From Candidatus Egerieousia equi (GTDB lineage: Bacteria > Bacteroidota > Bacteroidia > Bacteroidales > UBA932), in assembly GCA_018065035.1 (NCBI GenBank), contig JAGHUC010000003.1:1-41433 (forward strand): 41,433 bases of DNA, given 5' to 3'. The translations under genes and the position numbers were made by a program. Shown piece after piece: positions 5,812-36,602 of this stretch. The notes under the pieces were generated by a model, which saw only the letters and a program-made list of their open reading frames with translations, made no database searches and was not told where the DNA came from. The number at the start of each line of letters is the position of its first letter. Within the stretch, counting starts at the first letter, position 1.

Positions 5812-8025
5812 ATGAAAAGACTACTTCCATTCCTTGCAGTATTATCTGCCATATTCGTTTCCTGCAGTGTGCCGGAATTCAGTGACAATTCTCAGGAAAA
5901 GGCGGCTCAGGAACTGGCCTGCAGGGTCTTGGGAGACAAGGCCGCTTCTCATTTCAAGTTCACTCTCCGCTCTGATTCAACGGAAACCTGTGATTCCTTC
6001 ACCCTCCGGCAGAAGGGCCGGAAAGTGGAGATTGTGGCCAATAACGCCAATTCAATGGCTGTAGGACTGAACTATTATCTGAAATATTATTGCAATGCGG
6101 AATACGGATGGCTGGTCGGCGATGATCCTGTTCTTCCTGAAAGATGGCCGGATGTTGATGAGCCTGTTACCATAAAGGCGCGTGTTGCCGATAGATTCTT
6201 CCTGAATTATTGTACCTATGGTTATACAATGCCATGGTGGAGATGGTCCGACTGGGAGCATTTCATTGACTGGATGGCAATGAACGGAGTGAATCTGCCT
6301 CTTGCTATCACCGGCCAGGAGTCCATCTGGTATCAGATATGGACGGAGATGGGCCTGAGTGACGAGCAGGTGAGGTCATACTTCACAGGTCCTGCACATC
6401 TGCCTTGGCACAGGATGCAGAATATTGACCGCTGGGGCGGGCCGCTTCCAAAGAGCTGGCTTGATGCGCAGCTGGAGTTGCAGAAGCAGATAACGGAACG
6501 TGAAAGGGAACTGAACATGAAACCGGTGCTTCCTGCTTTTGCGGGGCATGTTCCAAGGGAGTTGAAGGAGATTTATCCTGATGCTCCTATGACAGAACTT
6601 GAGCCATGGGCAGGATACACCGCGGAATATGCCTGCACCTTCCTTGATCCTATGAGCGAGCTTTATACAGAGATTCAAAAGAAGTTCATAGAGAAAGAAA
6701 CCGAGATTTACGGAACAGACCACGTTTATGGCCTGGACCTTTTCAACGAGCTCATGCCGCCAAGCTGGGAGCCTGATTATCTTGGAAGAGTGAGCCGTCA
6801 GGTGTTTGAGTCCTTGAAGGCTGCGGATGAAGATGCAGTATGGCTCCAGATGGGCTGGCTGTTTTATAACGAGCGCAAATACTGGACAAATGACAGGGTG
6901 GAGGCTTATCTCACTTCGTTCCCTGCTGACAATCAGCTGCTTCTTGATTATTATTGTGAAAAGATGGAGGTCTGGCAGAGGACCGAGTCCTTCTACGGCG
7001 TGCCATATATCTGGTGCTATCTTGGCAATTTCGGCGGCAATACCAATCTGGTTGGACAGATGCGTGAGATTGACAGCAGAATTGAAAACACATTCGTTAA
7101 CGGTGGCTCGAATTTCAGGGGCATAGGTTCGACACTGGAGGGTTTCGACTGCAATCCGTACGTTTACGAATATGTTCTGGAGAAAGCATGGGACATGCCT
7201 TTGACAAAAGATATCCCTGCCTGGACCAAGGCTCTGGCAAACAGGAGGACAGGTGCAGCCGATCCATTGGCACAGGAGGCCTGGACTGAACTCATAGACA
7301 GCGTTTACGTTGACTTCTCCTCTCCCGGACAGGCTTGCTATATAAACCAAAGACCAAATATCAAGAAGTCCAGGGCTTATTATACAAACGCAAGGCTCAA
7401 GTATGACAACAGCCATCTTGAAAACATAATAGGCAGGTTGCTTGAAGTTGATGGCCGTGGAAATGCATATAATTTCGATCTCACCAATCTTACCCGCCAG
7501 ATGCTTGCCAATAAGTTTGGAGAACTTAAAATCCAGCATGATACGGCATATATGACCGGCGACAGTGCTACGATGCGAAGACTTCAGCCTCAGATGCTGG
7601 AAATAATGAAGGATGCGGACAAAGTGCTGGCAACTCAGAACTATTTCCTCCTTGGCAAATGGATTGACGATGCACGCAGCTGGGGTGTTGACGATTCCGA
7701 AAAGGATTATTTCGAGAGGAACGCAAGGAACCTGCTCACATCATGGAGCGATGCTGACATGCTCCTGAACGACTATGCCTCAAGAACCTGGAACGGCCTT
7801 ACCCTCACATACTACATGCCTCGCTGGGAAATGTTCTTCAGGTACATAAACAAGGTGATGGATGAGGGTAAATCCTGGGACGATGCAGCATACTCCGACT
7901 TCAATTCAGAATGCACCGCTTATGAAAGAAAGTGGTGGAATGAGTTCATAGGTAAATTCAGTTCCAGTCCTGATGGCGACAGCAAGGCCATTGTGCTGGA
8001 GATTTATAATAAGTATTGCAAATAG
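5812..8025 (+). CDS. Alpha-N-acetylglucosaminidase lipoprotein, GH89 (NAGLU-like)
   Basis: A 737-residue exo-hydrolase releasing terminal alpha-linked N-acetylglucosamine, known from heparan sulfate and gastric mucin-type glycans. The N-terminus (MKRLLPFLAVL... VSC) is a lipoprotein signal, placing it in the periplasm or at the cell surface. The NAGLU N-terminal domain (about 25-115) is followed by the TIM barrel. LFNEL carries Glu313, the predicted acid/base, and STLEGF carries Glu443, the predicted nucleophile. These line up with human NAGLU Glu316 and Glu446. The C-terminal helical domain follows to the end. It is 9 bases upstream of an outer-membrane barrel gene, suggesting a joint uptake/degradation pair. 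The pair lies opposite to and between pyrI and pyrB. Confidence 0.93.
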   Translation: MKRLLPFLAVLSAIFVSCSVPEFSDNSQEKAAQELACRVLGDKAASHFKFTLRSDSTETCDSFTLRQKGRKVEIVANNANSMAVGLNYYLKYYCNAEYGWLVGDDPVLPERWPDVDEPVTIKARVADRFFLNYCTYGYTMPWWRWSDWEHFIDWMAMNGVNLPLAITGQESIWYQIWTEMGLSDEQVRSYFTGPAHLPWHRMQNIDRWGGPLPKSWLDAQLELQKQITERERELNMKPVLPAFAGHVPRELKEIYPDAPMTELEPWAGYTAEYACTFLDPMSELYTEIQKKFIEKETEIYGTDHVYGLDLFNELMPPSWEPDYLGRVSRQVFESLKAADEDAVWLQMGWLFYNERKYWTNDRVEAYLTSFPADNQLLLDYYCEKMEVWQRTESFYGVPYIWCYLGNFGGNTNLVGQMREIDSRIENTFVNGGSNFRGIGSTLEGFDCNPYVYEYVLEKAWDMPLTKDIPAWTKALANRRTGAADPLAQEAWTELIDSVYVDFSSPGQACYINQRPNIKKSRAYYTNARLKYDNSHLENIIGRLLEVDGRGNAYNFDLTNLTRQMLANKFGELKIQHDTAYMTGDSATMRRLQPQMLEIMKDADKVLATQNYFLLGKWIDDARSWGVDDSEKDYFERNARNLLTSWSDADMLLNDYASRTWNGLTLTYYMPRWEMFFRYINKVMDEGKSWDDAAYSDFNSECTAYERKWWNEFIGKFSSSPDGDSKAIVLEIYNKYCK

Positions 8026-29252: not shown

Positions 29253-29363
29253 AATTTTGTTAGAATTCAAAAAAAATTGTGTAAATTGCGAAGTATTTTG
29301 TGAATGACTGGATAAAGATTAATACTAATAAATACATTGTTTAATTTAATTACTAAAAAACCT

Positions 29364-30098
29364 ATGAAAAAATTTTTCATGTTTCTGGCAGTATTCGGCC
29401 TCGTAGCCTTTGCTGCTGATTCAGCTCTCGCTCAGGAAGCCAATGAGCTCTCTGTAGCTACAGACATTCCTGTTTACCAGCAGATTAAGATTAAATTCAT
29501 CGAGGGTGGTGCAGGCTTCATGGCTACAGTATTGTTGTGCCTTATCTTCGGTCTTGCAATCGTAATTGAGAGAATCATTTACCTGAACATGGCTACTACA
29601 AACACAACCAAACTCCTCAACAAGATAGAGGGTGCTCTCAACGAGGGTGGTATCGAGGCTGCAAAGGACGTTTGCCGTAACACACGCGGTCCTGTTGCTT
29701 CTATTTTCTATCAGGGTCTTCTCCGCGCCGATGAGGGTGTTGAGATGGTTGAGAAATCAGTTGTTTCTTACGGTGGTGTTCAGATGAGCCAGCTCGAGAG
29801 CGGTCTTTCATGGATTACTTTGTTCATTGCTATTGCTCCTTCACTCGGATTCTTGGGAACAATTATCGGTATGATCGCTGCATTCGACGCTATTGCAATT
29901 GCAGGTGATATCTCTCCTAACATTGTTGCAGGTGGTATGAAAGTTGCTTTGATTACAACCGTTGGTGGTTTGATCGTTGCTATCATCCTTCAGTTGTTCT
30001 ACAACTACCTCGTATCAAAGATTGACAGCCTCGTTCTTGCAATGGAGGATTCTTCAATCGCACTCGTTGATATGATTGCTGCATATAACAAAAGATAA
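29364..30098 (+). CDS. MotA/TolQ/ExbB proton-channel family protein
   Basis: A 244-residue inner-membrane subunit of a TonB or Tol energising complex. A signal-like N-terminus (MKKFFMFLAVFGLVAFAAD... LAQE) precedes a membrane segment at about 52-72. A cytoplasmic loop follows, then two further segments at about 150-172 and 190-213, with GFLGTIIGMIAAFDAI and KVALITTVGGLIVAI as the ExbB core. The frame extends to a TTG at 29337, but the ATG at 29364 is chosen. Arg codons here are mostly CGT/CGC, and GGT/GCT are favoured, unlike most of the window, which points to high expression. It is the first gene of a four-gene operon, 14 bases before the next gene. Confidence 0.9.
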   Translation: MKKFFMFLAVFGLVAFAADSALAQEANELSVATDIPVYQQIKIKFIEGGAGFMATVLLCLIFGLAIVIERIIYLNMATTNTTKLLNKIEGALNEGGIEAAKDVCRNTRGPVASIFYQGLLRADEGVEMVEKSVVSYGGVQMSQLESGLSWITLFIAIAPSLGFLGTIIGMIAAFDAIAIAGDISPNIVAGGMKVALITTVGGLIVAIILQLFYNYLVSKIDSLVLAMEDSSIALVDMIAAYNKR

Positions 30099-30111
30099 TT
30101 GAAAGACAGTT

Positions 30112-30528
30112 ATGAAGAAATTACCTAAATATTTACTGTACATACTCTTTATAATTTCTATCATTGTCCTCATTGTTTTCCTTGTAGGACTTGGTAGCAA
30201 TCAGGAGAGTGTTGTAGGGTTGATGCTCAACTGGTCATACGTTCTGTTGGCCATTGCCATCATAGCTACATTTGTACTTCCTTTCATGTATCCTACAGGA
30301 AAGGGTGCAAAAGGCGCTTTGGTAAAAGTAGGCATCCTCGTTGTTTTGTGTGTAATATGCTACTTGTGCGGCAGCGGTGATCCGCTCCCTGAGACAGCAT
30401 CAAAGACACAGGCTTCAGCTTCAACATTGAAATGGACAGATGCAGGCCTTATCCTTTCAGGTATTCTTACACTTGCAGCTTTCCTTTTGATTTGCTTCGG
30501 CTCATTTATTAACTCATTAAGGAAATAA
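30112..30528 (+). CDS. Four-segment membrane protein of the ExbB/ExbD operon
   Basis: A 138-residue protein that I do not recognise at family level. Four membrane segments are visible, at about 5-27, 40-60, 70-88 and 108-133. Short loops join them: a basic one (PTGKGAKG) between the second and third and a Ser/Thr-rich one between the third and fourth. It has no signal peptide. It lies 14 bases after the ExbB-like gene and 3 bases before the first ExbD-like gene, so it is almost certainly co-translated with them. Similar small membrane proteins are, as I recall, found at this place in other Bacteroidetes. It may be an assembly or stability subunit of the proton channel, but this is inference. 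Confidence 0.8.
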   Translation: MKKLPKYLLYILFIISIIVLIVFLVGLGSNQESVVGLMLNWSYVLLAIAIIATFVLPFMYPTGKGAKGALVKVGILVVLCVICYLCGSGDPLPETASKTQASASTLKWTDAGLILSGILTLAAFLLICFGSFINSLRK

Positions 30529-30530
30529 TT

Positions 30531-31109
30531 ATGGCAAGACCAACACCGGAATTGAATGCTAGTTCAATGGCGGATATCTCTTTCCTCATGCTGATTTTCT
30601 GGTTGACAACAACAACCATGAACTCAGACAAGGGTCTCCAGCGCCGTCTGCCTCCTATTCCTCCTGAGGATCAGAAGACAGAGGATATAAAGGTCAAGGA
30701 GAGAAATGTCATTCAGGTTAAGATCAACCAGAATGACAGGATCATTGCCGGTGGTCAGATTATCGAGATTGATCAGCTCAAGGATATCGTTGCTGATTTC
30801 ATCGGTAATCCAACCAACAGCGAGACCAAGCCTGAGAAGGAGATGAAGAACATTGAAGGTTTTGGTGAGTGCGAGGTTTCCAAGGGCGTTGTTTCATTGC
30901 AGAATACACGTGGTACAAGCTACAACTCATATCTGATGGTTCAGAATGAGCTTGCAAAGGCTTTCAATCAGTTGCGTGACGATTTTGCAAAAGCGAAGTT
31001 CGGAAAGGATTATGCTTCCTTGGATGAGGATCACCAGAAAATTGTTAGAGACGCTGTTCCTTTGAGCATTTCAGAGGCAGAGCCTAAGGACATTACAAAG
31101 AAGAAATAA
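30531..31109 (+). CDS. ExbD/TolR-like biopolymer transport protein (long form)
   Basis: A 192-residue protein with one N-terminal membrane segment (about 14-30) holding Asp15 (MADISFLML), the conserved proton-relay aspartate of ExbD. The periplasmic part (about 45-192) is longer than in E. coli ExbD (141 residues), with an extra region around residues 95-180 ending in a basic tail. It starts 3 bases after the four-segment membrane protein. A second, shorter ExbD follows 13 bases later, so the complex may use two different D subunits. Confidence 0.88.
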   Translation: MARPTPELNASSMADISFLMLIFWLTTTTMNSDKGLQRRLPPIPPEDQKTEDIKVKERNVIQVKINQNDRIIAGGQIIEIDQLKDIVADFIGNPTNSETKPEKEMKNIEGFGECEVSKGVVSLQNTRGTSYNSYLMVQNELAKAFNQLRDDFAKAKFGKDYASLDEDHQKIVRDAVPLSISEAEPKDITKKK

Positions 31110-31122
31110 GGAGGATTGAGAA

Positions 31123-31578
31123 ATGGCAAAATTCGCAAGAACAGGTAGCAAAGAAGCTCCTAAACTTAACACATCATCTCTTCCTGATATCGTCTTCATG
31201 ATTTTGTTCTTCTTCATGGTCACAACCCAGTTGAGAGACCAGGAGGCTCTGGTAACAGTCAACTTGCCAAAAGCAAGTGAAATAGCAAAACTTGAACGTA
31301 AGGATTTGGCTTCTTACATCAACATAGGTACACCTGTTAAGAGCAAACAGGCTGAGTTCGGTACCGATTCACGTATCCAGTTGAATGACTCCTTCAAGAG
31401 CGTTCAGGATATCCGTGACTTCGTAGCTGCTGAGCGTGACGCTCTTTCAGAGGCTGACAGAAGCTTTATGACAGTTGTTATCAAAGCGGACCAGAACGTA
31501 CGTATGGGTATTATTACCGATGTCAAGCAGGAATTGAGACGTTGTTCAGCTCTTAAGATCATGTACTCTGCAAAATAG
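31123..31578 (+). CDS. ExbD/TolR-like biopolymer transport protein (short form)
   Basis: A 151-residue second ExbD paralogue. The membrane segment (about 21-37, PDIVFMILFFFMVTT) holds the conserved Asp22. The periplasmic domain follows with IRDFVAAERDALSEADRSF and VVIKADQNVRMG, the usual ExbD fold. It starts after a good AGGAGG-like site (AAGGAGGATTGAGAAATG). It is the last gene of the operon; a strong terminator follows at 31605-31641. Confidence 0.9.
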   Translation: MAKFARTGSKEAPKLNTSSLPDIVFMILFFFMVTTQLRDQEALVTVNLPKASEIAKLERKDLASYINIGTPVKSKQAEFGTDSRIQLNDSFKSVQDIRDFVAAERDALSEADRSFMTVVIKADQNVRMGIITDVKQELRRCSALKIMYSAK

Positions 31579-31652: not shown

Positions 31653-31678
31653 TAGCAGTTGTGTTATTATTATTAATG

Positions 31679-32956
31679 ATGAAAAGGAATATTCAAATTC
31701 TTGCGGCGTTGCTGCTTCTCTTTCTTTCATCCTGCGCAAATGATCCACAGGACAACAAAGCAAAATATGTTTTTTATTTTATTGGTGACGGAATGGGCTT
31801 CTCTCATATAGCCCTGACAGAAGCATACATTGCCGAGGCTGTAACTCCGGGTGAGGCTGATGAACCTTCCAGTTTCCCTTTGTGTTTCACACAGTTCCCG
31901 GTTATGGGCATGGCTACTACATATTCGGCAAGCAACTGGATCACCTGTTCTTCTGCTGCAGGAACAGCTCTTTCCACCGGCTTCAAGACGGGTAATCATA
32001 TGCTTGGTGTCCTTCCGGATTCAACGGAACTGACAAGTATTTCCTATATGATACACAATGCCGGCCGCAACGTTGGTATCATGTCAAATGTCCCTATTGA
32101 TCATGCAACGCCTGCCTGCTTCTATGCATCGAGTGCATCAAGAAGCGATTATTTCAATGTTGCAAGCCAGATGCCGGCCAGCGGCTTTGAATTCTTTGCA
32201 GGCGGCGGACTTTATGGTGTCAAGGGCGTTGATGCTCAGGACAGTACCAAACGTCTCGAACTTGAAAAAATGATTGCTGATGCGGGCTATACAATTGCTT
32301 ACGGTATGGATGATTATAAATCAAAGAAGGACAATCGTGGAAAGATGGTTCTTGTTCAATCCGGTACTTTGAGAGGGGCAACCCTTCCGTATGCGAGTGA
32401 CAGAGAAATTTCGGATATGAGTTTGACTGATATGGTTGAAACTGCCATTGAAAGACTTGATGACGGAAAAGGCTTCTTCATCATGGCTGAAGGAGGTATG
32501 ATAGACTGGGCCGCACACGACAATGACGTTGCAAATACCATATACGAGATCATAGACATGGACCAGGCAATAAGGGTGGCTTACGATTTCTACCTTGAAC
32601 ATCCCGATGAAACATTGATTGTGGTAACTGCCGATCATGAGACAGGGGGCGTGTCAATAGGAAGGGGCAGCGGTTACACAATAGAGCTTGAGAATGTGCC
32701 GGCAATGAAAAGCGATACCACCAAGTCCAATCTTACTCTTGACAATTACATGCATGGCCCTGAGCAGCTTGATTCAGTTTCAGTCAAGACAAAAATCGGT
32801 TGGACCACTTCATCACATTGCGGCGGTGCCGTGCCTGTCTTTGCCATAGGCGCAGGCAGCTTGCAGTTCGCAGGAAGACAGAATAACACTGATATCCCTA
32901 GAAAGATATGCAGCGCCATGGGTATTGAATTCAACCCGGACATGAAAAAGCATTAA
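31679..32956 (+). CDS. Alkaline phosphatase lipoprotein (PhoA superfamily)
   Basis: A 425-residue phosphomonoesterase. The N-terminus (MKRNIQILAALLLLFLSSC) is a lipoprotein signal, so it is periplasmic or surface-anchored. Metal-site blocks: FIGDGMG, MAEGGMIDWAAHDND, VVTADHETGGVS and TTSSHCGGAVPV. The nucleophile region reads ITCSSAAGTALSTG, so Cys90 stands where the usual Asp precedes the nucleophilic Ser (Ser91). The ATGs at 31676 and 31679 are both possible. It follows a terminator and has its own -7 box. The GHL10-SGNH gene begins 26 bases later. Physiological substrate unknown. Confidence 0.9.
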   Translation: MKRNIQILAALLLLFLSSCANDPQDNKAKYVFYFIGDGMGFSHIALTEAYIAEAVTPGEADEPSSFPLCFTQFPVMGMATTYSASNWITCSSAAGTALSTGFKTGNHMLGVLPDSTELTSISYMIHNAGRNVGIMSNVPIDHATPACFYASSASRSDYFNVASQMPASGFEFFAGGGLYGVKGVDAQDSTKRLELEKMIADAGYTIAYGMDDYKSKKDNRGKMVLVQSGTLRGATLPYASDREISDMSLTDMVETAIERLDDGKGFFIMAEGGMIDWAAHDNDVANTIYEIIDMDQAIRVAYDFYLEHPDETLIVVTADHETGGVSIGRGSGYTIELENVPAMKSDTTKSNLTLDNYMHGPEQLDSVSVKTKIGWTTSSHCGGAVPVFAIGAGSLQFAGRQNNTDIPRKICSAMGIEFNPDMKKH

Positions 32957-32982: not shown

Positions 32983-35157
32983 ATGAAAACAAGACAGTTC
33001 ATATCCGCCATGGCTTCAGCAGTGATTCTGCTGGCGGTATCTGCAAACAGTTTCGCACAGGAGCTTCCTAAATGCGAGTTCAGGGGAGCCTGGTTGCATA
33101 TTGTAGGCAACAAACGCATTGCTACACAGACCAGTTCCCAGTTGCAGGAGAAATTGATTGCAACTCTCGATTCCTTGAAACTTGCCGGCTGCAATGCGGT
33201 CCTCTTTCAGGTAAGACCGGACGCTGACGCCTTCTATGATTCGAAACTTGAACCTTGGACCAGATATCTCACCGGCGTTCAGGGCAGGGCACCGGAACCA
33301 TATTGGGATCCTCTTGCATTTGCAGTTGAGGAGTGCCACAAACGCGGTATGGAACTGCATGCCTGGTGCAATCCTTACAGAGTTACATCGGAGGAAAGTG
33401 ACATACTTTGCGATGACCATTTGTATCACAGGCATCCGGAGCTTTTCGTGAAATATGGCAAGCAGTGGTATTTCAATCCGGGTGAGCCTGCTTCAAGAAA
33501 GTTCGTGACCAAGGTGATGGTTGACATTGTAAAGAGGTATGATGTTGACGCCATTCACTTCGATGATTATTTCTATCCTTATCCTATTGAAGGGCAGGAA
33601 TTCGATGATGAGGCTTCTTTCAGGAAATATGGTGCGAAGCAGGGTTTTGACAAGGACCACAAGGCCGACTGGAGACGTGACAACGTTACAATTCTGATGC
33701 GCGACATTAACATTGCCATAAAGAAGGTGAAGCCTTGGATAAGACTTGGTATCAGTCCTTTCGGCATTCACAGGAACAAGAAGGACACTCCTGACGGCAG
33801 CGGAAGCGAGACAAACGGCCTCTCATGCTACGAGGCTCTGTATGCCGACATTCCTCTCTGGGTTGAAAAGGGTTACATAGATTACAACGTGCCGCAGATT
33901 TACTGGGAGATAGGACATCCAAGAGCTGATTACGAGGTCCTTATCAAATGGTGGAGCGCAAATACTCCAAAGGCTCATTTCTATGTGGGCCAGAATGTAA
34001 GTTCATTGAACAAAAAAGATTTGAACAATCCTGAGACAACTCAGTTGAGGCGCAAGATGGAACTTGTCAGGACCTTACCTAACGTTCATGGCAATGTCTG
34101 GTGGCCGGGCTGGTCGGTTGTGCGTAATCATGCACATATTGCCGACAGCCTCATTCAGGTTTATCAGAAGTATCCTGCACTTATCCCTGCATATTCCGAT
34201 ATTGATTCAACAGCTCCGAAACCGGTTGAGAATCTCAGGAAAGAGGGTTACCTCCTCAAATGGAACCAGAATAGGAAGGACGCTTCCGACAAGATGCAGA
34301 AAGCTCATTTCTATGTCATATACTACTTCCCTGCAGGCGTTGAGGTTGATACCAACAACAGCAAGTACATAATAAAGATTACACGTGACACCCAGTTCAG
34401 CATTGCTGAAAACTGCCATCACAAGGACAGAAGCCTGGATCATAAAAAAGGCAGCAGGTATGTGGTGAGCGTAGTTGACAAATGCTGGAACGAGAGTCGT
34501 GGCAATATCGTCTGGGAGGAGACCAAGGACTACTGTGATTATTACTATCCACGTCTGGAGGAGTTTGCGAGCCAGATTCCAGTGGATTCAAAGGATTATG
34601 TATTCCTTGGCAACAGCCTTACACAGGGCGGCAAATGGGAGGAGTACTTCCCTGAAGTGCAGGCGGAGCTTGAGAAGAAAGGAGGCTCTATCCGCAACAG
34701 AGGAATCATTGGTGACACTGCCGATGGAATATATGACAGACTTGAGGAAATCCTCAACGGAAAGCCTGCGAAACTGTTCTTCCTTACAGGTGCCAATGAC
34801 ATAAGCCACAACCTGAGCGCCGATACCATCGTTGGTAGAATAGAGAAAGTGATTGACAGAGTTCAGCAAGAATGCCCGAAGACAAGGATATATGTGGAAA
34901 GCCTTCTGCCTTTCAACGAGAGTTTCAAGAGATACAAGGCTTTGAACGGCAAGACACATGTTGTGAACGAGACCAATGCCGTTCTGGAGAAAATGTGCGA
35001 GCGCAGGGGTGTTGAATTCATTTACATCCACGATCTGTTCCTTGAGGATGGCAGCAAGGAGGTTCTCAAGGCAAGCATTTCACCTGATGGATTGCATTTG
35101 AAACCTGAAGGTTATCAAATATGGAAAGAGGGTATAAGGAAGTGGGTTGAGGAATAA
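32983..35157 (+). CDS. GHL10-type glycoside hydrolase fused to an SGNH esterase
   Basis: A 724-residue secreted protein with signal cleavage after SFAQ (about residue 26). Residues about 30-410 are the GHL10/DUF187 barrel, with EFRGAWLH at the start, WCNPYR, and HFDDYFYPY (His192, Asp194, Asp195). Characterised relatives such as E. coli DigH cleave glycan strands stripped of peptides. Residues about 415-510 look like a fibronectin-type linker. Residues about 530-724 are a complete SGNH hydrolase: FLGNSLTQGG (Ser545), IIGDTADGI, TGANDISH (Asn605) and SPDGLHL (Asp702, His705). One polypeptide could thus deacylate and cut a glycan. The fusion is in frame, with no sign of a sequencing error. asnS starts 53 bases later. 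Confidence 0.88.
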   Translation: MKTRQFISAMASAVILLAVSANSFAQELPKCEFRGAWLHIVGNKRIATQTSSQLQEKLIATLDSLKLAGCNAVLFQVRPDADAFYDSKLEPWTRYLTGVQGRAPEPYWDPLAFAVEECHKRGMELHAWCNPYRVTSEESDILCDDHLYHRHPELFVKYGKQWYFNPGEPASRKFVTKVMVDIVKRYDVDAIHFDDYFYPYPIEGQEFDDEASFRKYGAKQGFDKDHKADWRRDNVTILMRDINIAIKKVKPWIRLGISPFGIHRNKKDTPDGSGSETNGLSCYEALYADIPLWVEKGYIDYNVPQIYWEIGHPRADYEVLIKWWSANTPKAHFYVGQNVSSLNKKDLNNPETTQLRRKMELVRTLPNVHGNVWWPGWSVVRNHAHIADSLIQVYQKYPALIPAYSDIDSTAPKPVENLRKEGYLLKWNQNRKDASDKMQKAHFYVIYYFPAGVEVDTNNSKYIIKITRDTQFSIAENCHHKDRSLDHKKGSRYVVSVVDKCWNESRGNIVWEETKDYCDYYYPRLEEFASQIPVDSKDYVFLGNSLTQGGKWEEYFPEVQAELEKKGGSIRNRGIIGDTADGIYDRLEEILNGKPAKLFFLTGANDISHNLSADTIVGRIEKVIDRVQQECPKTRIYVESLLPFNESFKRYKALNGKTHVVNETNAVLEKMCERRGVEFIYIHDLFLEDGSKEVLKASISPDGLHLKPEGYQIWKEGIRKWVEE

Positions 35158-35210: not shown

Positions 35211-36602
35211 ATGGAAGATATCAAAAGGTTAAGGGTGGTGGAGCTGCTTTCAAAGACTCCCGGATGTGATGTACTGGCCAAAGGCTGGGTAAGAACCAAA
35301 AGAGGGAACAAGAACGTTTCGTTCATAGCTTTGAACGATGGCTCTACAATAAACAATATTCAGGTGGTTTGCGATGCCGCCGTTTTCAGTGAGGATCTGC
35401 TCAAGGACATTACCACAGGCGCATGTCTTGCAGTTTGGGGCAAACTTGTGGAGTCTCAGGGAAAGGGGCAGAGCGTTGAGATCCAGGCTTCAAGAATAGA
35501 AATCTACGGCAAGGCCGATGCAACTTACCCTCTTCAGAAAAAGGGCCACAGCCTTGAGTTCCTCAGGGAGATAGCACATTTGCGTCCAAGGACAAACACG
35601 ATGGGTGCCGTATTGAGAATACGCCACGCAATGGCTTTTGCAATACACAGCTATTTCAACAGCAAAGGCTTCTTCTATCTTCATACACCTCTGATCACTG
35701 CTTCCGACTGTGAGGGAGCAGGTGAGATGTTCCAGGTTACTACAATGGATCTTGACAACGTTCCTAAGACCGAGGATGGAAAGATAGATTACAGCAAGGA
35801 CTTCTTCGGACGCCAGACATCCCTCACGGTAAGCGGACAGCTTGAAGGTGAGCTTGGAGCAATGTCACTCGGACAGATTTATACTTTCGGACCAACTTTC
35901 AGGGCGGAGAATTCAAATACTCCAAGGCATCTCGCCGAGTTCTGGATGGTTGAACCTGAGGTTGCTTTCAATGATATCACCGACAACATGAATCTTGCCG
36001 AGGATTTCATCAAGTATCTGGTGAAGTATGCTCTCGACCATTGCATGGACGATCTGAAATTCCTCAACGACATGTTTGACAAGGAGCTGATAAGCCGTCT
36101 GGAAGGCGTTATCAATACTGAGTTCGTAAGACTGCCATACACCGAAGGCGTTAAGATACTTATGGAGAGCGGCAGGAAGTTCGAGTTCCCTGTTGGCTGG
36201 GGCATAGACCTTCAGAGCGAGCATGAGCGTTATCTTGTTGAGGAGCATTTCAAGAAACCTGTGATACTTACAGACTATCCTAAGGATATCAAGGCATTCT
36301 ACATGAAGCAGAATGATGATGGCAAAACTGTAAGGGCAATGGACGTTCTCTTCCCTAAGATAGGTGAAATCATAGGCGGTTCCGAAAGGGAGGAGTCACT
36401 TGAGAAACTTGAGAGAAGAATAGCCGAACTCAAGATGGATACAAGAAACCTCTGGTGGTACATAGATACCAGAAGATTCGGTACAGCACCTCACAGCGGC
36501 TTCGGACTCGGATTCGAGAGACTGCTGCTCTTTGTGACAGGTATGTCAAACATCCGCGACGTGATTCCGTTCCCAAGAACACCTAAAACAGCCGAATTCT
36601 AG
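35211..36602 (+). CDS. asnS: Asparagine-tRNA ligase
   Basis: A 463-residue class II synthetase charging tRNA-Asn. The OB-fold anticodon-binding domain (about 20-105; [20 protein letters not shown]) is followed by the catalytic core. Motif 2 is [21 protein letters not shown], and motif 3 is [15 protein letters not shown]. The length is typical of bacterial AsnS. It probably starts its own transcription unit with udk, which begins 21 bases downstream. Confidence 0.97.

Follow-up and report, generated by a model that had tools for sequence, protein, structure and literature searches.

A single open reading frame in the window, by which we mean the whole 41,433-nucleotide stretch of Candidatus Egerieousia equi DNA analysed here, encodes a predicted exported protein of 724 residues that joins a GHL10 (DUF187) barrel to an SGNH esterase, and in it known families are combined in a new domain architecture. 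The reading that we favour, to which we assign a probability of roughly 0.5, is that this protein de-O-acetylates and cleaves peptidoglycan, with the peptidoglycan substrate, the specificity for C6 O-acetyl groups, the order of action, and the benefit of tethering being the parts of it that we infer. The features on which the argument turns are as follows.

29337–31578, + strand: ExbB, a 138-residue protein, ExbD, and a second ExbD-like gene, which make up the conserved section upstream (Pfam matches to ExbB and ExbD; synteny)
31661–32956, + strand: PhoA, an exported alkaline phosphatase lying about 27 bp before the fusion gene (PF00245, 1.5e-61; synteny)
32983–35157, + strand: the GHL10–fn3-like–SGNH fusion gene (724 residues, predicted exported; open frame, Pfam, same fusion in genome G035)
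32983–33057, + strand: Sec signal peptide, residues 1–25 (sequence MKTRQFISAMASAVILLAVSANSFAQ; helix at residues 2–21 in the structure model)
33076–34017, + strand: GHL10 (DUF187) TIM barrel, residues 32–345 (PF02638, 3.1e-70; Cwp19 structure 5oq2, 8.3e-84; Foldseek, 2.3e-37)
33562–33567, + strand: GHL10 acidic pair Asp194-Asp195, equivalent to Cwp19 Asp195-Asp196 (alignment mapping; roles from PMC5765458)
34168–34512, + strand: fibronectin-III-like beta domain, residues 396–510 (alignment of 33 orthologues, weak fn3 matches, model strands)
34603–35121, + strand: SGNH/GDSL esterase domain, residues 541–713 (PF13472, 5.6e-23; 7pzg, 1.8e-43; 6njc, 1.3e-42)
34615–34617, + strand: Ser545, nucleophile (in 68 of 69 relatives, with one gap)
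34795–34797, + strand: Asn605, oxyanion hole (69 of 69 relatives)
35086–35097, + strand: Asp702 to His705, triad block V (each in 69 of 69 relatives)
35211–36602, + strand: AsnS, the conserved downstream boundary of the locus (NCBIfam; synteny)

The frame starts at an ATG and contains no internal stop, and the signal peptide, read by eye from the sequence, is predicted to be cleaved between SFA and QE. An assembly or frameshift artefact can be ruled out, because the corresponding locus of a second species (G035) encodes an identically built fusion (723 residues, 74% identity), synonymous sites between the two are saturated (pS 0.83, with an overall pN of 0.17), and both enzyme domains are conserved, each at 75% amino-acid identity; in this comparison the reading frame continues across the junction, with no stop there. 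The initial annotation, a model's reading of the sequence alone, had described one in-frame 724-residue protein with a complete GHL10 barrel, the motif HFDDYFYPY at residue 192, and a complete SGNH triad (Ser545, Asn605, Asp702/His705), and its account of the architecture stands in each of these respects: the motif begins at that residue, the barrel is borne out by the PF02638 match and by the active-site residues discussed below, and the triad is near-invariant over 69 relatives. What it overlooked are the fn3-like domain (about residues 396–510) and the PhoA gene just upstream. The fusion is the sole GHL10 match in a search of the window's genome, and a search of the whole protein against the NCBIfam profiles gave no match. 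The domain between the two enzymes looks like a fibronectin-III domain on the evidence of alignment and model, in that it is also found at the C-terminus of the unfused GHL10 orthologues and its strands are mostly confident in the structure model; the fn3 profile matches are weak (best 0.003), and a profile search of solved structures did not confirm the middle domain as fn3. The model itself is good for the GHL10 domain, mostly so for the linker, and poor for the SGNH half.

The history of the locus can be read from the same genus. In the examinable relatives, as far as their contigs reach, the order is TruB-QueA-DprA-TatD-asparaginase-ExbB-orf138-ExbD-ExbD-PhoA-(GHL10)-SGNH-AsnS. PhoA, GHL10, and SGNH are separate genes in 13 genomes, each SGNH having its own signal peptide, and G002 has separate GHL10 and SGNH genes without PhoA, which brings to 14 the genomes in which GHL10 and SGNH are separate adjacent exported genes. 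PhoA is followed by SGNH in G034 and G001, with GHL10 missing from the locus, and 15 genomes of a sister clade (including L030 and L032) carry a PhoA-SGNH fusion, likewise with GHL10 missing; in one of these 15, G016 (L127:7254-9118), the PhoA-SGNH fusion is split into two frames by an apparent frameshift. The outgroup L260, from another genus of the same family, has PhoA, GHL10, and AsnS in succession and no SGNH at the locus. A tree built from eight neighbouring proteins implies a single origin for each fusion, and five changes, the minimum, account for all the architectures. The simplest history would begin with adjacent PhoA and GHL10 genes, followed by the arrival of SGNH and, in one branch, by its fusion to GHL10; in the other branch GHL10 would have been lost and PhoA then fused to SGNH. 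The esterase has thus been fused twice at this locus, to GHL10 and to PhoA, each time to the exported gene directly upstream, and the locus shows with unusual clarity how a single enzyme can be joined independently to two different upstream neighbours. Where the two parts of GHL10-SGNH meet, the last stretch of the GHL10 protein (CWNES...W) is followed immediately by the first residues of the mature esterase (Y.D.YY.RLEEF), the stop codon and the second signal peptide of the separate genes having been lost. A third fusion suspected in G007, as a 756-residue open frame, was rejected, since an in-frame TAA at L015 2998-3000 leaves two genes. Linkage of PhoA, GHL10, and AsnS was not found outside the family in 80 named, mostly Bacteroidales, loci.

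Outside the genus the combination of GHL10 and SGNH appears to be rare. The initial annotation had allowed that the fusion might already be common in Bacteroidales; no instance from another genus appeared among the matches listed or examined when the SGNH domain was searched against 393 genomes from the order and 395 from the phylum, and a GHL10-domain search of 384 genomes of the order listed no other GHL10-SGNH protein among its matches, these sets being samples that amount to about 750 Bacteroidota genomes in all. A literature search for GHL10 combined with SGNH, its coverage excluding most subscription journals, found nothing. Four long GHL10 proteins scanned from elsewhere have fn3 and T9SS sorting domains (two of them) or nothing else recognised, and none has an SGNH domain; large GHL10 proteins of about 870–1045 residues are seen in L251-L254 and L256, and in G358, G394, G147, and G393 large GHL10 genes lie roughly 15–35 kb from a MurNAc-linked SGNH gene. 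The same esterase subfamily does occur in other fusions, namely GH92-SGNH (L177:1495-3570), SGNH-GH20 (L183:1-2178), and, in the clade of the sialate esterase EstA, sialidase-SGNH (L200:8741-11029), the last being a plausible parallel in which an esterase is joined to the glycosidase that it would unblock. The same type of SGNH domain is also fused to a serine beta-lactamase-like protein (PF00144; L185:7463-9220 and L186:8073-9836), and contig C94 of the window's genome encodes a protein that combines an SGNH domain with an endonuclease/exonuclease/phosphatase domain (PF03372; L003:1270-2688).

For the GHL10 half, the evidence points to cell-wall glycan. The PF02638 match scores 237 bits, with a cut-off of 27.9, and covers model positions 1–302 of 311, and the best solved relative of the domain is Cwp19, with 42% identity over 349 aligned residues in the profile comparison, where the similarity extends to residue 394, and 38% identity by Foldseek. 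The active site proposed for Cwp19 comprises 13 residues, namely Trp36, Gln77, Trp127, Arg132, Asp195, Asp196, Tyr197, Ser250, Gln295, Tyr297, Gly328, Phe367, and Ser368 (PMC5765458), of which 11 are identical in the fusion (W37, Q76, W128, R133, D194, D195, Y196, S258, Q305, Y307, and G336); the position of the Phe367-Ser368 cis-peptide is occupied by W374-P375. Cwp19 is a demonstrated lytic transglycosylase of peptidoglycan that yields 1,6-anhydro muropeptides (PMC6016235), and the GHL10 domain of the fusion probably cuts cell-wall glycan in the same manner. Its fold also resembles the GH156 sialidase 6rzd, and at 12% identity this Foldseek likeness is too weak for the domain to be taken as a GH156-type sialidase.

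The esterase half matches PF13472 (Lipase_GDSL_2) with 82.8 bits, the cut-off being 32.9, and extends over about residues 517–724 when its N-terminal helix is included; besides the triad, the oxyanion residue Gly577 of block II is present and near-invariant over the 69 relatives. Its best solved relatives are the Phocaeicola vulgatus sialate O-acetylesterase EstA/PvSAE structures, at 39% identity (Foldseek 3.3e-13). The substrate of EstA bears its acetyl group on a primary hydroxyl (C9) of an acidic N-acetylated sugar, to which C6-O-acetylated MurNAc would be chemically similar. In the SGNH tree the window's domain falls outside a 24-row clade that unites EstA with enzymes of sialic-acid operons (support 99/94), although the root and some long branches leave some doubt over this exclusion. 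The loop that reads LPFNESFKRYK..GKT in the window, as in L187 and L185, reads LPVNDCYGMF..SRW in EstA, a difference that is a trend and not a clean rule. The esterases of G009 and of the G022 group fall apart from those of the other genus members, and some gene replacement or long-branch error is therefore possible.

The relatives of this esterase are informative through their gene neighbourhoods. Six SGNH relatives from outside the genus are accompanied by genes of MurNAc salvage, and in four of these (loci L187, L189, L194, and L198; genomes G097, G394, G247, and G147) the SGNH gene directly follows murQ, the identity of MurQ being given by TIGR00274/PRK05441 matches for the L189 and L187 copies. 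The operons also include, though not all in every one, a BadF-type (MurK-like) kinase, a MurT/NagX-like membrane protein, NamZ, an AmpG-like permease, and an FAD-linked dehydrogenase of the D-lactate/glycolate type; in G358 the SGNH gene lies beside a MurK-like kinase with the dehydrogenase near, and in G393 it lies near the same gene set. An experimentally studied MurNAc operon is murT-murK-murQ of Tannerella forsythia (PMC5790795). A second group of SGNH genes (L191, L193, and L202) keeps company with sialidase, sialic-acid lyase-type, and epimerase genes, matching EstA. We also observe, across two or more Bacteroidales families, MurNAc-salvage operons whose last gene is an EstA-related SGNH gene. 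These neighbourhoods suggest that the esterase may act on muramic acid of the cell wall, and the SGNH proteins of the murQ operons are candidates for a new group of muramic-acid O-acetylesterases. Such a MurNAc type is not a single group in the tree, because some of its members (L189, L194, L198, and L192 by name; three of the six by count) lie inside a wider clade that also holds EstA; the SGNH genes of the murQ operons are spread over several branches (four label changes) and do not unite in a single clade with the window's domain, which is among the non-EstA branches.

Searches of the window's genome recovered a corresponding salvage route, with MurQ and MurK on contig C88 (L243) and NamZ and AmpG (L244) on another contig. 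The fusion lies on contig C62 and is thus not in the murQ/murK operon, nor is GHL10 linked to MurNAc genes in this genome. No MBOAT protein of the PatA type was found in the window's genome or in G035, whereas other genus members have one, and two Acyl_transf_3 genes in the window's genome are short (frames of about 365–395 residues) and, unlike OatA, have no SGNH part. With no recognisable acetyltransferase of the PatA or OatA type, the organism's own peptidoglycan may not be O-acetylated, and an O-acetylated peptidoglycan substrate, if there is one, may therefore be foreign.

Under the favoured reading, the fusion would be an enzyme of the periplasm or envelope that has two active sites and was formed from neighbouring exported genes. 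Its SGNH domain would most likely deacetylate MurNAc at the C6 hydroxyl, acting on peptidoglycan or on muropeptides. The GHL10 domain would then cut the chain at MurNAc, probably by lytic transglycosylation through the freed hydroxyl, and the fragments would feed the salvage route encoded in the genome (NamZ, AmpG-like permease, MurK, and MurQ). Lytic transglycosylases use the C6 hydroxyl of MurNAc and are blocked by its O-acetylation (PMC1199599; PMC6016235), so that removing the acetyl group first is chemically sensible; in Bacteroides, 27–69% O-acetylation of peptidoglycan has been reported (PMC1199599). The same step would, in addition, make the site of MurK phosphorylation available. The initial annotation had proposed a self-contained machine that deacetylates and then cuts, a scheme that gains from the kinship with Cwp19 and from the esterase relatives in MurNAc operons of other Bacteroidales families. 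The term self-contained is too strong, because the enzymes are separate in 14 relatives and the esterase is fused to PhoA in the sister clade; by the same token, GHL10 is not an obligate partner and the tether is not essential. A bolder version, which we regard as a long shot, has all three exported enzymes of the locus acting on the MurNAc C6 hydroxyl, where the phosphatase would clear away a phosphate and the SGNH enzyme an acetyl group, both from C6, so that GHL10 could close the 1,6-anhydro ring, with PhoA-SGNH and GHL10-SGNH being two packagings of one C6-clearing step; the SGNH proteins of the murQ operons would then be a new kind of muramic-acid O-acetylesterase, ancestral to the EstA-like sialate esterases.

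These considerations have to be weighed against readings in which the pairing, or the substrate, is different. The fusion could be incidental, with neighbouring housekeeping enzymes of the envelope having been joined by a deletion, the tether having no specific role, and the esterase acting independently of GHL10. That the same esterase was separately fused to PhoA, on each occasion to the gene directly upstream, that the genes stay apart in 14 relatives, and that the junction is direct, with only a stop codon and a signal peptide missing, all speak for such an origin; against it, GHL10-SGNH has been kept over saturating synonymous divergence, and the recurrence of this esterase type with sialidase, GH92, and GH20 suggests that functional pairing is common. 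We consider an incidental fusion possible but doubtful.

The choice of substrate raises two further alternatives. The esterase could be an EstA-like sialate esterase or a broad sugar O-acetylesterase, in a protein acting on host mucin or other glycans and not on peptidoglycan, and we judge this unlikely. It would agree with the 39% identity to EstA/PvSAE, with the resemblance of the Cwp19 fold to GH156 sialidases (6rzd), and with the presence in the window, at 5812–8025 and beside an outer-membrane beta-barrel gene, of a GH89 alpha-N-acetylglucosaminidase (NAGLU) gene, but the window's domain lies outside the EstA/sialic-acid clade and differs in its loop, the locus contains no recognised sialic-acid gene, and the similarity of GHL10 to Cwp19 (38% by Foldseek) far exceeds that to GH156, an enzyme family whose catalytic-site residues Cwp19 does not share (PMC6811678). 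Alternatively, both domains could process some other O-acetylated envelope or dietary polysaccharide, such as an exopolysaccharide or O-antigen; the lack of recognised PatA/OatA-type genes, the two short Acyl_transf_3 genes, which are of a kind seen in polysaccharide acetylation, and the reported activity of the GHL10 protein DogH on starch (PMC9967864), suggesting that GHL10 need not be peptidoglycan-specific, lend it some plausibility. Set against active-site residues that follow Cwp19 and esterase relatives that sit in MurNAc operons, we find it quite improbable. The reading that we retain is the de-O-acetylation and cleavage of peptidoglycan.

O-acetylated peptidoglycan resists lysozyme and lytic transglycosylases, so that in gut Bacteroidales the identity of the enzyme responsible for deacetylation is of consequence both for wall turnover and for the sharing of cell-wall fragments. 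To our knowledge, Ape-type esterases alone are usually considered for this task. From the gene neighbourhoods, a further group of SGNH esterases, related to EstA, seems to be linked with MurNAc salvage, and this link is the most useful by-product of the analysis.

Among known systems, Ape1-type O-acetylpeptidoglycan esterases belong to the SGNH/GDSL_2 class and carry out the reaction proposed for the fusion, with a different architecture; no match named Ape1 was among 25 structure-database matches of the fusion. DigH of Escherichia coli, a glycosyl hydrolase acting on denuded glycans (PMC12288456), is likened to the fusion by its description, sharing the proposed cutting of glycan chains, but no esterase part has been described for it. 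EstA/PvSAE (6njc and 7pzg, from Bacteroides and Phocaeicola) has the same SGNH subfamily, triad, and N-terminal helix; the fusion differs from it in lying outside its clade, in the loop after SLLP, in its location away from a sialic-acid operon, and in the attached GHL10 domain. The SGNH proteins of the murQ operons (L187, L189, L194, and L198) resemble the fusion in being exported, in the loop of most of them, and in their sequence (37–43% identity where measured), but they are single-domain proteins within MurNAc-salvage operons. Cwp19 of Clostridioides difficile (5oq2/5oq3) shares with the fusion the GHL10 barrel, nearly all of the mapped active-site residues, and export, and differs from it in its Phe-Ser cis-peptide, where the fusion has Trp-Pro, and in carrying three cell-wall-binding repeats (CWB2) and no esterase.
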